DNA from: Bacillota bacterium | Lineage (GTDB): Bacteria; Bacillota; Clostridia; Lachnospirales; Lachnospiraceae | Reading direction: 5' to 3' | Length of the DNA stretch: 44,619 nucleotides | Assembly (NCBI GenBank): GCA_023663285.1 | Contig: JAMPHT010000023.1 | Location: 1 to 44,619 of the forward strand | Shown here: positions 30,935 to 44,530 of the stretch, one piece after another | Numbering within the stretch: the stretch's first letter is position 1 | Layout of the letters: every line of letters begins with the position of its first letter | Made by a program: the position numbers and the translations under genes | Notes under the pieces: generated by a model | What the model saw: only the letters and a program-made list of their open reading frames with translations | What the model was told of the DNA's origin: nothing | The model's database searches: none

Positions 30935-31591
30935 ATGTCATTTATTCCGAAACCACATGAAATTTACAAGCATTTTAAAGGGAATCTGTACCAGATAACA
31001 GCGGTGGCGGAGCATACTGAGACAGGCGAACAGCTGGTGGTCTATCAGGCGCTGTACGGAGATTTTAAGACCTATGCCAGACCTCTTTCCATGTTTACCG
31101 ACAGGGTGGACAGGGAAAAGTATCCGGAGGCACCCCAGGAATTCCGATTCGAGCTCCAGGGGCCCGACGGGGAGCGGCAGAGAGCGGAGGCGGGCACAGG
31201 CTTAGCGCCGGAGCGGGCTGCGGATACAGCGCCAGGTCAGACGCCGGATGCAAAGGCAGCAGAACGGGGGTCGAAGGCAGAGGCAGAAAGGGGCGGGGAG
31301 ACGGCAGCCCCTGCTGCCCGCACAGCGGACGGGGAGTGGAGCAAAGAGGAAAACATCGAAGGCGAGCTGACCCTCGACCCCATGGTGCTGGAGTTCCTGG
31401 ACGCGGATGAGTATGAACAGCGGCTGAATATCCTGGCAGGACTGCACCACAGGATCACCGATGAAATGATCACCACCATGGCGATCGCCTGTGATGTGGA
31501 GATCGCTGAGGGTGATATTGAGGAGCGGTATGAGGCGCTGAAGGCCTGTCTGCTGACCAGAGAGCGGTACGAGTGCAATCGTATCAGGTAG
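30935..31591 (+). CDS. DUF1653-domain protein with disordered middle
   Basis: 218 residues. The first 70 residues (KPHEIYKHFKGNLYQITAVA, LVVYQALYGDFKTYARPLSMF) match DUF1653, a small beta-rich domain of unknown role. Residues about 80-140 are Ala/Glu/Gly-rich and probably disordered. The last 75 form a helical domain (VLEFLDADEYEQRLNILAGL). Many DUF1653 proteins are only the first domain, so this is a longer version. No membrane segment is seen. The start is preceded by GAGAGGAG. Confidence 0.8.
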   Translation: MSFIPKPHEIYKHFKGNLYQITAVAEHTETGEQLVVYQALYGDFKTYARPLSMFTDRVDREKYPEAPQEFRFELQGPDGERQRAEAGTGLAPERAADTAPGQTPDAKAAERGSKAEAERGGETAAPAARTADGEWSKEENIEGELTLDPMVLEFLDADEYEQRLNILAGLHHRITDEMITTMAIACDVEIAEGDIEERYEALKACLLTRERYECNRIR

Positions 31592-32949: not shown

Positions 32950-34734
32950 ATGAAATACGATAATATAGTACAGGCGCGTTTTATAAGCCGCCCCAACCGT
33001 TTTATCGCCTATGTGGAGCTTGGGGGGAAAACAGAAAAAGTCCATGTGAAGAACACCGGGCGCTGCAGGGAGCTTCTGCAGCCCGGTGTGGTTGTTTATC
33101 TGACGAAAAGCGAAAATAGAGCCCGCTCCACTGCCTACGATCTGGTGGCGGTGGAGAAGGGAGAGCGCATGATAAATATGGATTCTCAGGCGCCTAACAG
33201 GGCGGTGGAGGAATGGCTGCGCTCAGGTTCCTTTTTGCCGGATGTAAGGGTGGTGCGTCCGGAGACTGTCTACGGCAGTTCCCGTTTTGATTTCTATCTG
33301 GAGACGGAAACGGAAAAAATCTTTATGGAGGTGAAGGGGGTCACCCTGGAGGAAGAGGGGGTCGTCCGGTTTCCCGATGCGCCCTCCGAGCGGGCGGTAA
33401 AGCATATGGAGGAGCTGATCCGGGCGAAGGGCGCAGGATATCGCGCTTTTGTCATGTTTGTGATCCAGATGGAAAATGTAGATCATTTTGAACCAAACAG
33501 GGACACTCACCCGGAATTTGGAGACGCGCTGTGCAGGGCGGCGGATGCCGGAGTGGAGATACTGGCTTACGACTGCAGGGTGACAGGGGATTCTCTGACG
33601 CTGAATGAACCGGTTCCGGTGAGACTTAAGGAAAACTTAAGGCTTGAAACCATTCCCAAACCGCTTCTGGAATGGTATGATAAAAACAGAAGGATCCTTC
33701 CCTGGCGGGAAGAGCCGACGCCTTACCGGGTATGGGTGTCGGAGATCATGCTGCAGCAGACCAGAGTGGAGGCGGTCAAGCCCTATTTTGAGCGGTTTAT
33801 GTCTGCGCTGCCGGATGTCAGGGCGCTGGCAGAGGCTGAGGAGGAGCAGCTGTTGAAGCTCTGGGAGGGACTTGGATACTATAACAGGGTGAGGAATCTG
33901 CAGAGAGCGGCATTGCAGATACTGAATGAGTATGGCGGCGAGATGCCGGAGGAGTATGAGGAGCTTCTAAAGCTTACCGGTATCGGCAGCTATACGGCAG
34001 GAGCCATTGCGTCCATAGCCTACGGCAGGCCCGTTCCTGCGGTGGACGGGAATGTTCTCCGGGTGCTGGCAAGGCTGAGGAAGGACGAAAGGCTTATCAC
34101 AGACGGAAAAGTAAAGACGGCGGTAGAGCAGGAGCTGTGGGAGGCTATGCCTGCGGATCGTTCCGGAGAGTTCAACCAGGCTATGATGGAGATCGGCGCC
34201 TGCGTCTGCATTCCGGTGGGCGCGCCGCTCTGCGGTATCTGCCCTTTAAGTCATCTCTGTCTGGCTCATGGGGACGGCACAGAGACGGAGTTTCCCAAAA
34301 AGGAAGGGAAAAAGCCCCGTAAGATAGAAGAAAAGACGGTGCTGGTCATCCGGGATGAGAACAGGGCCGCTATTCACAAGCGCCCGGCAAAAGGGCTTCT
34401 GGCGGGAATGTATGAGTTTCCCATGCTGGAGGGCTATCGGACGGCGGAGGAGGTAACGGCTTATCTGGCGGAGAACGGCGTCCGGGTGCTGCGCATTCAG
34501 CCCCTGGAGGAAGCCAGGCATATCTTTACCCATAAGGAGTGGCATATGAAAGGCTATATGGTCCGGGTGGATGAGCTGGACCACGGAAGCCCCGGCGAGG
34601 ACAGCAGGAGCTGGCTTTTTGTGGAGCCGGGTGAGACCGAGGAAAGGTATCCGATACCGTCAGCGTTTGCCGCCTACACCGGATATCTTAAGATACGCCT
34701 GGGAAAAGAGAGGTATGAGGAGGAAGAAAGGTGA
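32950..34734 (+). CDS. mutY: Fusion of SfsA nuclease-like domain and MutY adenine glycosylase
   Basis: 594 residues. About residues 1-230 are a full SfsA-type protein (FISRPNRFIAYVELGGKTEKV, HVKNTGRCRELLQPG, VYGSSRFDFYLE, IFMEVKGVTL), a DNA/RNA-binding PD-(D/E)XK-like nuclease family. From about 235 a complete MutY follows: WREEPTPYRVWVSEIMLQQTR with the catalytic Glu, VPAVDGNVLRVLARL with the catalytic Asp, four Cys of the iron-sulfur cluster (CIPVGAPLCGICPLSHLC), and a C-terminal Nudix-like domain (LLAGMYEFPMLEGY). MutY removes adenine opposite 8-oxoguanine. The reading frame is continuous across the join. The ribosome site is weak (AAACAGG). The stop overlaps the next gene by four bases. 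Confidence 0.9.
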   Translation: MKYDNIVQARFISRPNRFIAYVELGGKTEKVHVKNTGRCRELLQPGVVVYLTKSENRARSTAYDLVAVEKGERMINMDSQAPNRAVEEWLRSGSFLPDVRVVRPETVYGSSRFDFYLETETEKIFMEVKGVTLEEEGVVRFPDAPSERAVKHMEELIRAKGAGYRAFVMFVIQMENVDHFEPNRDTHPEFGDALCRAADAGVEILAYDCRVTGDSLTLNEPVPVRLKENLRLETIPKPLLEWYDKNRRILPWREEPTPYRVWVSEIMLQQTRVEAVKPYFERFMSALPDVRALAEAEEEQLLKLWEGLGYYNRVRNLQRAALQILNEYGGEMPEEYEELLKLTGIGSYTAGAIASIAYGRPVPAVDGNVLRVLARLRKDERLITDGKVKTAVEQELWEAMPADRSGEFNQAMMEIGACVCIPVGAPLCGICPLSHLCLAHGDGTETEFPKKEGKKPRKIEEKTVLVIRDENRAAIHKRPAKGLLAGMYEFPMLEGYRTAEEVTAYLAENGVRVLRIQPLEEARHIFTHKEWHMKGYMVRVDELDHGSPGEDSRSWLFVEPGETEERYPIPSAFAAYTGYLKIRLGKERYEEEER

Positions 34735-35759
34735 AATTGTTATCCATAGCGGTTCCCTGCTATAATTCGGAAAAATATATGAGAAAGTGCATCGAGTCCC
34801 TTCTGGCGGGAGGCGAGGATGTGGAGATCATCATTGTGGACGACGGCTCCACCAGGGATGCAACAGCGGAGATCGCGGATGAATATGCGGCAAAATATCC
34901 TACTATCGTCAAAACGGTGCATAAGGCAAACGGCGGCCACGGCTCCGCGGTGAACACGGGGATCGACTATGCCACGGGGCTTTATTTTAAGGTGGTGGAC
35001 AGCGACGACTGGGTGAAAAAGGAAGCCTATGCAAAGGTGCTGGATACCCTGCGGGAATTTGCAGGGGGGGCGCAGGTGCTGGATATGCTGGTGTGCAACT
35101 ATGTCTATGAAAAAGAGGGCGAGAAGAAAAAGAAGGTCATTCAATACCGCCACAGTCTGCCCATGGACCGTATGTTTACCTGGGAGGACTGCCATCATTT
35201 CCAGAAAGGCCACTATATCCTGATGCACTCTTGTATTTTCAGGACAAAGCTGCTGAAAGAGTGCGGGATACGGCTTCCGGAGCATACCTTTTATGTGGAC
35301 AACCTCTATGTGTTTGAGCCTCTGCCCCATGTAAAGAATATGTATTATCTGGATGTGAATTTTTACCGTTATTATATTGGCAGGGAGGATCAGTCCGTCA
35401 ACGAGGAGGTCATGATCTCCCGCATCGACCAGCAGATAAAGGTCAATAAGCTGATGATCGATTATCTGGTGGGAAAGAAAGCGGAGCTGGTGAAGCATAA
35501 GCGTCTGTACCAGTACATGAGAAACTATCTGGAGATCATCACCACCGTTTCCTCGGTGCTGCTGATACGCTCCGGCACGGAGGAAAATCTGGCAAAGAAA
35601 GTGGAGCTGTGGCAGTATTTAAAGGAGAAGGACAGAAAGCTGTACCACTGGCTGCGCCACGGTATCATGGGAGAAGCCATGAACCTGCCCGGCCGGGGCG
35701 GACGCAAGATCTCGGTGGAGGGCTATAAGATCTGCCGGAAGATATTTAAGTTTAACTGA
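34731..35759 (+). CDS. Family 2 glycosyltransferase
   Basis: 342 residues with a GTG start at 34731, overlapping the MutY stop (GTGA) and with GAGGAGG upstream. The GT-A fold marks are clear: LLSIAVPCYNSEKYMRKCIESLL, VEIIIVDDGSTRDAT, HGSAVNTGIDYATG, and the metal-binding VDSDDW (about residues 89-94). The C-terminal part is helical and has no membrane spans, so the enzyme is probably soluble or peripheral. The sugar and acceptor are not predictable. Coupling to a DNA repair gene is likely an operon accident. Confidence 0.92.
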   Translation: MKLLSIAVPCYNSEKYMRKCIESLLAGGEDVEIIIVDDGSTRDATAEIADEYAAKYPTIVKTVHKANGGHGSAVNTGIDYATGLYFKVVDSDDWVKKEAYAKVLDTLREFAGGAQVLDMLVCNYVYEKEGEKKKKVIQYRHSLPMDRMFTWEDCHHFQKGHYILMHSCIFRTKLLKECGIRLPEHTFYVDNLYVFEPLPHVKNMYYLDVNFYRYYIGREDQSVNEEVMISRIDQQIKVNKLMIDYLVGKKAELVKHKRLYQYMRNYLEIITTVSSVLLIRSGTEENLAKKVELWQYLKEKDRKLYHWLRHGIMGEAMNLPGRGGRKISVEGYKICRKIFKFN

Positions 35760-41440: not shown

Positions 41441-42691
41441 TTGCAAAAACGGATCACCTGCGCCCTGTTACTGATAGTGCTTTCTCTTTGGCCTGCGGCC
41501 TGTTCCGGCGATTCCTCCGAAGAGGGGATCTTAAGCCCGGAGGAGATGGAGGCTGCGCACCTGGAAATGGAACTGACAGAGGGGGTGCTGGTAGATGCAG
41601 GGATCACGCCCTACAGCCGCTATGAGAACGGCCTGAGCGCTTATTATGTATCTATGAAGTCTCAGGAAGAAAATTTAGTGACAGAGGAGGAATTCATAGC
41701 CTCCCCTGTTATCTATGGGTATTCTGTGGAAGAGTTTGCCCGGCTGCTGGCGGAGCAGGGCGGATTTTCGCCGGAATATACCTGGGAGGTACGTCTTATT
41801 CCGGGAGAGGCGCTGGGACATCTGGTCATGCAGGATCAGGCAGGAATTGAAAGGACACTTTATTGCAGCTGGCGAAGGGATGAAGCGGGATGTGTGGAAG
41901 TGACTCCGACTTCGCTGATCTACAATTATGAATGGGATTGCTTTGACAGTAATGCAGCCGGCGCCCTTATGTATATGACGGAGCCCGATAAGTCCGAGCT
42001 TACATTTGCGTCCTCCGGGGAGCTGGAGGTGCAGGCGGAAAAAATACTGAAGCAGCTGACGGGTGAGGAATATTACCCGGAAGTTCTTTGTTCTCCCATG
42101 GGGGAGACGAACCGGCAGAAGATGAGAGACCGCGGGGGCAGTATATTGGACGAAGTTTCCGACAATGCCTCTTATCAGAAGGAGGATTATTATGGATTCA
42201 GCTTTTATCGGGATGTGGATGGCTTTCCCCTGATGTATCTGACCGGCTCGCTTGTCCTGACGGAGGCTGTTGCATGGGATGAGGAGCTGGACGTGCAGGT
42301 TCACGGGAATCATATAATACCCGGCATTGCGCAGGCGGATTTCGTCAGTTGGGGGGAAGGCAGCGGGCTCCGGTGTCTGGACATAACCAGGGAGCTTTGT
42401 ATGCAGGAGGTTTACAGGGAACGGGAAAGCGTCTGCGATATCAACAGGATACTGGAAAACGCAAAGCAGTATTTCGACAGCATCCTGCTTCCCGCCGCCG
42501 TGACGGTGAACCGCATCGAGATAGCGTATTCCTATTGGTTTTCGGATGCGGAGGACGGGCCGCTGCGCAATATTGCGGCTCCCTTCTGGGTGGTACAGTA
42601 CTGGGATCCCGCCTCGGAAATGCAGATGGTGTTGGTATTTGACGCCTTTTCCGGGCAGCTGCTGTTCAGCGAGATGAACTATCAGCCCTAG
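41441..42691 (+). CDS. Lipoprotein, paralog 1 (TTG start)
   Basis: 416 residues. Translation starts at a TTG (41441), with GGAGG ten bases upstream. The N-terminus is a lipoprotein signal (MQKRITCALLLIVLSLWPAAC, lipid Cys at 21). Conserved blocks with the second copy are HLEMELTEGVLVDAGITPYSRY near the front, YSVEEFARLLAEQ, YNYEWD, GEEYY with PMGETNRQK, and almost the whole last 88 residues from RESVCDINRILENA. I do not recognise the family. The protein should sit on the outer membrane face. It may be the extracytoplasmic partner of the two-component system or of the permease that follows; this is inference. Confidence 0.8.
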   Translation: MQKRITCALLLIVLSLWPAACSGDSSEEGILSPEEMEAAHLEMELTEGVLVDAGITPYSRYENGLSAYYVSMKSQEENLVTEEEFIASPVIYGYSVEEFARLLAEQGGFSPEYTWEVRLIPGEALGHLVMQDQAGIERTLYCSWRRDEAGCVEVTPTSLIYNYEWDCFDSNAAGALMYMTEPDKSELTFASSGELEVQAEKILKQLTGEEYYPEVLCSPMGETNRQKMRDRGGSILDEVSDNASYQKEDYYGFSFYRDVDGFPLMYLTGSLVLTEAVAWDEELDVQVHGNHIIPGIAQADFVSWGEGSGLRCLDITRELCMQEVYRERESVCDINRILENAKQYFDSILLPAAVTVNRIEIAYSYWFSDAEDGPLRNIAAPFWVVQYWDPASEMQMVLVFDAFSGQLLFSEMNYQP

Positions 42692-43276: not shown

Positions 43277-44530
43277 TTGAAAAAGCGGATTATCCGGACT
43301 ATATTATTATTTTTGATTTCTTTTTTGTTCACCGCTTGTTCCGACTCTGCTGCAAGTGACAGGCTTGTAACACAGGAGGAGATGGAGGGTACGCACCTGG
43401 AGATGGAACTGACAGAGGGGGTGCTGGTAGATGCCGGAATTACGCCATACAGCAGATATGGGAACGGCCTGAGCGCCTACTATGTAACCAGTGAGATCAG
43501 GGAAGAAGATCTGGTGACGGAGGAGGCGTTTTTGGCCGCTCCCGCCATTTATGGGTATTCTGTTGAGGAATTTGCCCGGCTTCTGGCGGAGCAGAGCGGG
43601 TTTTTGCCGGAATACACCTGGGAGGTACGTCTTAATCCGGGAGAGGCGATAGGATATCTGGTCATGCAGGATCAGGCAGGAGTTGAGAGGACATTATGGT
43701 GCGAATGGCGTATGGATGAGGGAGGTTGGGTGGAGTCGAATCCGAATGTCGTATTCTATAATTATGAATGGGACAGCTTTGATCACAATGCAGCCTGTAA
43801 TCTTTTAAGCCATGCTGTTCCAGACGAGTCTGAACTGGATTTTGCGTCCTCTGAGGAACTGGCGGCACAGGCGGGAAAAATCCTTATGACCGTGACAGGG
43901 GAGGAATATTACTCGGAAGTTATTTGTGTTCCCATGGGGGAGACGAACAGGCAGAAGCTGAAAGATTGCGGCTATGAGATTCCGGGAGATTTAGCTGACA
44001 GCAATTCGCCGTATCTGGAGGAGGATTATTACGGATATATATTTTACCGGAATATAGACGGATTCCCTTTAAGATATCTGAGTCTCTCGATGATCTTGAC
44101 GGAAAATACCGTCTGGGACGAGGAACTGGACGCTCAGCGCTATCTGGATCTTCTGATACCGCTTATAGCAGATAAGCAGTTTGTCAGTTTTGGGGAGACC
44201 GAAGGACTTCGGTATTTAAGCACGGACAGAAAACCCTGTATCATGGAAGCTTATAAGGAAAGGGAAAGCGTCTGCGATATCAACAGGATATTGGAAAACG
44301 CGAAGCAGTATTTCGACAGCATCCTGCTTCCCGCTGCCGTGACGGTGAACCGCATCGAGATAGCATATTCCTATTGGTTTTCGGATGCGGAGGACGGGCC
44401 GCTGCGCAATATTGCGGCTCCCTTCTGGGTGGTACAGTACTGGGATCCCGCCTCGGAAATGCAGATGATGCTGATATTTGACGCTTTTTCCGGGCAGCTG
44501 CTGCTCAGCGGGATGAACTATCGTCCCTAG
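43277..44530 (+). CDS. Lipoprotein, paralog 2 (TTG start)
   Basis: 417 residues, TTG start at 43277 with GGGAGG ten bases upstream, the same unusual arrangement as in copy 1. The lipoprotein signal is MKKRIIRTILLFLISFLFTAC with lipid Cys at 21. Similarity to copy 1 runs along the whole length. The middle has drifted (roughly half the residues match by eye), while the last 88 residues differ in only about five places. The stop is 16 bases before a probable permease gene. Function unknown; family not recognised. Confidence 0.8.
   Translation: MKKRIIRTILLFLISFLFTACSDSAASDRLVTQEEMEGTHLEMELTEGVLVDAGITPYSRYGNGLSAYYVTSEIREEDLVTEEAFLAAPAIYGYSVEEFARLLAEQSGFLPEYTWEVRLNPGEAIGYLVMQDQAGVERTLWCEWRMDEGGWVESNPNVVFYNYEWDSFDHNAACNLLSHAVPDESELDFASSEELAAQAGKILMTVTGEEYYSEVICVPMGETNRQKLKDCGYEIPGDLADSNSPYLEEDYYGYIFYRNIDGFPLRYLSLSMILTENTVWDEELDAQRYLDLLIPLIADKQFVSFGETEGLRYLSTDRKPCIMEAYKERESVCDINRILENAKQYFDSILLPAAVTVNRIEIAYSYWFSDAEDGPLRNIAAPFWVVQYWDPASEMQMMLIFDAFSGQLLLSGMNYRP

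Follow-up and report, generated by a model that had tools for sequence, protein, structure and literature searches.

A single-frame fusion of SfsA and MutY recurs in Lachnospiraceae genomes

MutY is a glycosylase that removes adenine mispaired opposite 8-oxoguanine. In the window analyzed here, i.e., the whole stretch of 44,619 nucleotides of a Lachnospiraceae contig, a single gene encodes this repair enzyme and, in front of it, a complete SfsA protein. We asked whether the two families are truly joined and what an SfsA tied to MutY might do. The passages on SfsA in PMC1189080 predict a PD-(D/E)XK nuclease with an OB fold, describe the Escherichia coli protein as a nonspecific DNA binder and call its mechanism unknown. 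The NCBIfam family TIGR00230 bears the name DNA/RNA nuclease SfsA, and in our literature search we recognized no paper as an experimental nuclease test of SfsA. Members of the family were found in both bacterial and archaeal control genomes.

The fusion gene and its two halves

The gene occupies positions 32950..34734 of the forward strand, on which its domains, the junction and the two flanking genes described below also lie. It is a single open frame of 594 codons plus stop with an ATG start and no internal stop codon, as the initial annotation had it, and its ATG is preceded by AGGT, a short match to a ribosome-binding site. Pfam places SfsA_N at residues 12-77, SfsA at 80-213, HhH-GPD at 263-393, NUDIX_4 at 463-576 and an HHH motif at 328-356 of the protein; all five matches exceed their cut-offs, the HHH motif barely. 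The protein also passes both NCBIfam equivalog cut-offs, reaching 187.9 bits for sfsA (TIGR00230, cut-off 126.45) and 320.3 bits for mutY (TIGR01084, cut-off 286.5). By homology, the chain unites two full-length proteins, as the initial annotation stated: SfsA accounts for residues 1-226 and MutY for about 231-594, the join falling at about 33628-33640.

The SfsA half consists of the N-terminal OB domain (32983..33180, PF17746, 6.8e-22) and the PD-(D/E)XK-type nuclease domain (33187..33588, PF03749, 2.1e-47). Residues 8-226 align with residues 9-234 of E. coli SfsA (PDB 4dap) and so reach the last residue of the E. coli protein. The predicted nuclease residues D114, E127 and K129 (FDF ... EVK) are encoded at 33289..33336, and the residues given as ID-EVK in the SfsA passages of PMC1189080 are found here as F-D114 and E127-V-K129. 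Our SfsA alignment comprised 54 sequences from fused, 19 from adjacent and 98 from separate loci; two copies of the window (L001, L002), one short sequence (L158) and one fragment (L198) were left out. E127 and K129 are present in all of them (54/54, 19/19 and 98/98), and G130, F141, P142, D143, A144 and R148 are likewise invariant across these 171 rows, while D114 is kept in at least 95% of the fused and of the separate set and is invariant in an alignment of 26 rows. The acidic and lysine residues which the initial annotation wished to see checked are thus in place, and its alternative of an SfsA half stripped of all nuclease residues can be set aside. Standalone SfsA (TIGR00230; PDB 4da2, 4dap) shares with the fusion the OB domain, the SfsA domain, the D and ExK residues and the full length; the fusion differs in that the C-terminus of SfsA continues directly into MutY. 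In the source genome this domain is the sole SfsA match.

The MutY half comprises the HhH-GPD glycosylase domain with E265, Y348 and D366 (33736..34128, PF00730), four iron-sulfur cysteines C420, C428, C431 and C437 (34207..34260) and a C-terminal Nudix-like domain (34336..34677, PF14815, 2.4e-24). Residues 234-552 align with 12-330 of PDB 6q0c. The three glycosylase residues and the four cysteines occur in 52/52 fused, 19/19 adjacent and 63/63 other MutY sequences (five sequences, among them the two window copies, were kept out of this alignment), so that the catalytic Glu and Asp, the cysteines and the Nudix-like tail named in the initial annotation are all present and conserved. The Nudix-like domain also carries the F-S/T-H loop of MutY at 526-528, FTH in the window protein, with F526 and H528 invariant and T or S at 527 in the fused rows. 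The fusion thus displays the features that define MutY, an HhH-GPD domain with Glu and Asp, the 4Fe-4S cysteines and the Nudix-like domain with its loop, and from the family we infer that this half removes adenine opposite 8-oxoguanine. Standalone MutY (TIGR01084; PDB 6q0c, 1rrq) has the same glycosylase domain, Glu, Asp, Tyr, four cysteines and Nudix-like domain. In the fusion, by comparison, a complete SfsA stands in front, and in the cysteine spacing C-x7-C-x2-C-x5-C the first gap is one residue longer than in 6q0c (x7 vs x6).

At the junction (33628..33639) about four residues separate the end of the SfsA homology from the start of the MutY homology. A separate MutY made from an internal start was considered and rejected for the window gene, since the junction stretch holds one GTG and no ribosome-binding match. 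At 31 of 53 fused loci the junction has a start codon with a ribosome-binding match of at least four bases, 16 of these being ATG, and MutY may also be made on its own there. Among 56 fused loci the linker is 4 to 58 residues long, which argues against a fixed geometry of the two halves; the variable linker points to tethering and not to a rigid composite site.

Comparison with the nearest relative (L003) gave a dN of 0.079 and a dS of 0.645 for the SfsA half and a dN of 0.059 and a dS of 0.696 for the MutY half. Five pairs of fused genes were compared in this way; in each half, differences that alter the protein are much less frequent than silent differences, and in two of the five pairs the silent sites are saturated. 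Judged by these substitutions both halves are under purifying selection. Together with the retained catalytic residues this rules out a degenerate SfsA.

Distribution of the fusion

The genus of the window's genome was sampled with 61 genomes, own genome included, and by hand count the fusion is present in 47. In 39 of these a single match spans both halves; in the other eight the halves share a frame with a longer linker, and three of the eight (G014, G050, G053) were confirmed in sequence. Two genomes (G022, G033) have partial matches including parts of both halves, and in one (G032) sfsA and mutY are split into adjacent genes. Five have a MutY with no SfsA half beside it: in four of these (G011, G018, G046, G056) MutY occupies the usual locus and the genome yields no match to SfsA, so MutY is not strictly dependent on SfsA. 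The fifth, the one-contig genome G006, has a solo MutY at the usual locus (L219) and an SfsA (L220) about 73 kb away which belongs to a different branch of SfsA (with L151, support 100/99). MutY fragments only were found in G019 and G023, and no MutY match in G008, G025, G043 and G058, whose assemblies are 63-81% complete.

The family sample comprised 299 genomes from 298 genera, about one genome per genus, and 155 of them contain SfsA. We examined 150 SfsA loci from 149 genomes (30 + 120 fetched); the six remaining SfsA genomes (G070, G162, G171, G203, G319, G333) have weaker or unlisted matches. The genes are fused at 34 loci, three of them incomplete (two at contig ends, L106 and L158, and one with a shortened MutY frame, L119), and adjacent at 18, always in the order sfsA to mutY on one strand. 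At the remaining 98 loci, among them L198 with a fragment of 88 codons, mutY is absent over a distance of about 3 kb or as far as the contig extends. In three family members (G212, G266, G320) SfsA occurs without a MutY match at E 1e-30, which implies a MutY-independent role of SfsA somewhere.

In the genomes listed from beyond the family the two genes lie apart. Among the matches listed for a class sample of 341 genomes, both halves are covered only in the window's genome and in G045 of the same genus, and among those listed for a phylum sample of 299 genomes only in the window's genome; no fusion outside Lachnospiraceae is among the matches listed for either sample. Adjacency was found in 0 of 28 listed genomes outside the family with both genes (18 from the class and 10 from the phylum sample, hand count), and the closest sfsA and mutY outside the family among the genomes listed are about 9 kb apart (G712). 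For genomes outside Lachnospiraceae, the statement that SfsA and MutY are normally separate genes is therefore borne out.

From a scan of 84,980 species genomes we analyzed the best 80 matches. Fourteen are fused (L239-L252) and belong to Lachnospiraceae (several), Tyzzerella, Lachnoclostridium, Sellimonas, Dorea, Mediterraneibacter and one Clostridiales. Two have neighboring sfsA and mutY (L255, L265), in one the contig with MutY also bears a fragment of SfsA (L254), three have SfsA without a MutY match in its vicinity (L307, L314, L317) and 60 have no SfsA match. One of the loci (L304), which its match range had suggested to be a divergent fusion, was dropped because an SfsA match is absent. 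We also looked at six loci with long frames for other SfsA fusions. Judged from the frames alone no second domain was seen: three (L324, L326, L327) have an extra frame before SfsA only, and in the other three (L322, L323, L325) the SfsA frame found has 226-240 codons.

The same domain order, which the initial annotation suggested looking for elsewhere, thus recurs in many Lachnospiraceae genomes, and with 47 fused genomes in the genus the fusion is not confined to one strain. The source assembly, a draft in 90 contigs with 86% completeness, could raise the suspicion of a frameshift or assembly error at the join; such an artefact is virtually excluded, because the same join recurs in many separate assemblies: in the 47 genus genomes, at the 34 family-sample loci, five of these in single-contig assemblies (G094, G144, G250, G291, G355), and in the complete Lachnospiraceae genome AP025576.1 (L244). 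The sfsA-mutY fusion is a genuine and widespread joining of two known families, neither an artefact nor the oddity of a single strain. A literature search, with subscription papers and domain-architecture databases outside its scope, found no description of an SfsA-MutY fusion.

History and neighborhood of the locus

A quick tree of SfsA (168 rows) unites all but two of the 53 fused rows, 51 in number, with one adjacent row in one group, and L050 and L085 stand apart; the fused state requires four changes, of which supported branches force one. The corresponding numbers are 12 changes, three forced, for a quick MutY tree (137 rows), five changes, three forced, for a careful SfsA tree (58 chosen rows) and six changes, three forced, for a careful tree of both halves (36 chosen rows). 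In the careful analyses, not one of 200 bootstrap trees placed the fused rows on a single side. AU tests did not reject a single fused clade, neither for SfsA with all chosen fused rows (p 0.0996), nor for SfsA with L050 and/or L085 left out (p 0.314, 0.219 and 0.228), nor for both halves (p 0.11). On the best trees the fusion would thus have been gained and/or lost more than once; in view of the AU tests and of the single change forced in the larger SfsA tree, several independent gains are not proven. A single origin was tested on these trees and is neither established nor rejected by them.

The four genus MutY rows without SfsA are nested within the fused genus group of the quick MutY tree, and the stretch before the glycosylase of some solo MutY resembles by eye the linker of fused relatives (L219 vs L009 and L228). 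Such a linker-like stretch fits a history in which the SfsA half was lost once the genes had fused. Among the adjacent pairs, six of 19 have both genes in the same frame and close together. Judged by sequence comparison, the fusion is related to the sfsA-mutY gene pair recurring in Lachnospiraceae.

Upstream of the fusion lies a gene for a 5′-nucleotidase (PF06189, 31619..32758), found in this position at several fused and adjacent loci, and downstream a family 2 glycosyltransferase gene (34731..35759), whose start and the stop codon of the fusion overlap. A glycosyltransferase also follows many adjacent pairs, the fusions of the genus and five solo mutY loci of the genus; the four SfsA-less mutY genes of the genus stand after a DUF1653 or 5′-nucleotidase gene and before the glycosyltransferase. 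A DUF1653 protein (30935-31591 in the window) and the PF06189 5′-nucleotidase recur upstream of sfsA-mutY loci, and it is conceivable that these upstream genes are linked to oxidized nucleotides. Elsewhere in the window we noted a perfect 31-base inverted repeat near its start (66-96 and 174-204) and two similar neighboring reading frames at 41441-42691 and 43277-44530, lipoprotein-like by eye and perhaps a tandem duplication.

What the tethered SfsA may do

The fusion is a genuine, inherited protein that combines two enzymes. Our preferred reading, which we hold tentatively, sees in it an ordinary MutY to which a nuclease-competent SfsA is tethered, so that SfsA would be delivered to the DNA that MutY scans. 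The SfsA half is predicted to be a metal-dependent, nucleic-acid-binding nuclease; MutY would carry it to the scanned DNA, where it would work on nearby DNA or on a repair intermediate, and the benefit would lie in 1:1 co-delivery of SfsA and MutY rather than in a rigid joint active site. SfsA may plausibly act on the product of MutY; the initial annotation suggested that it could cut or hold DNA at MutY lesions. Co-delivery is supported by mutY adjoining sfsA unfused at 18 and being fused to it at 34 of the 150 loci, by the 0 of 28 adjacent pairs among the outside genomes counted, by the five or six changes of state on the careful trees, and by catalytic residues kept throughout with dN below dS in both halves. 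Against it stand the solo MutY genes without SfsA, the occurrence of SfsA without MutY, the spread of linker lengths and the AU tests, which do not reject one fused clade.

Nearly as credible is that neighboring genes ran together harmlessly as a by-product of an operon, with SfsA having a job unrelated to MutY. This would fit the recurrence of unfused adjacent pairs, six of 19 in the same frame and close, the solo MutY and the split pair within the same genus, the varying linker and the recurrent glycosyltransferase and nucleotidase neighbors, whose role in repair is not obvious. A mere by-product is, however, harder to reconcile with the constant order and strand of the adjacent pairs (18/18), with the lack of such pairs in the 28 outside genomes counted among those listed, and with the retention of the fusion in 47 of 61 genus genomes, both halves being intact where compared. 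Between co-delivery and a neutral fusion of operon genes we see little difference in likelihood, with a slight lean towards co-delivery.

It is improbable that SfsA serves as a DNA-binding or regulatory OB module which holds MutY on the DNA while its nuclease site is unused. The OB domain is present and nonspecific DNA binding is described for the E. coli protein in PMC1189080, but E127, K129, F141, P142, D143 and A144 are invariant in 171/171 sequences, as would be expected of a catalytic site in use.

Still less do we favor SfsA as the AP endonuclease of the pathway, nicking the abasic site made by MutY, although the predicted nuclease residues are intact and SfsA is tethered to the very enzyme that makes this site. 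XthA is over its cut-off in 55 of 61 genus genomes, the window's genome included, and Nfo in 23 (the window's genome not among them); one or the other is found in 59. Four of the six genomes without XthA have Nfo (G001, G012, G027, G033), and G039 and G051 (61% complete) have neither. SfsA is therefore unlikely as a substitute AP endonuclease, and AP incision does not in general require it; the idea that it fills in for a missing one is unsupported. The Pfam and NCBIfam matches of the fusion protein include no AP endonuclease family of the XthA or Nfo type. The suggestion of the initial annotation that SfsA processes the abasic site is weakened by these counts, by the four MutY genomes without SfsA and by linkers of 4-58 residues.

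A further reading would make SfsA a nuclease of 8-oxoguanine repair, which cuts or trims the strand beside the abasic site left by MutY or destroys the oxidized strand. We regard this as rather unlikely; if true, bacteria mostly without recognizable Fpg would have a one-protein repair path, and SfsA would gain a defined cellular role. As to Fpg/MutM, a match over the family cut-off was seen in one of 61 genus genomes and weaker ones in 10 others, with none in the window's genome. In that draft genome (86% complete) an OGG_N match is also absent, though MutY is present.

Comparable bacterial fusions, in which a glycosylase or nuclease of DNA repair carries a further domain, are described in PMC1839093: Ada-AlkA, and Cho with a DNA polymerase III epsilon-like exonuclease. 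There, too, separate forms occur in relatives, as with SfsA-MutY; these fusions use other domains and contain neither SfsA nor MutY. The covalent and widely retained link to a repair enzyme of known chemistry gives a testable hint where SfsA may work and makes it possible to ask whether SfsA acts on MutY-processed DNA. Lachnospiraceae, a gut-associated family, offer natural fused, adjacent, split and SfsA-less forms to compare.

We also inspected the neighbors of the separate sfsA loci for functional hints and found little that is clear. At four of these loci, including L110, a reading frame resembling by eye a UvrD/PcrA helicase lies downstream of sfsA.
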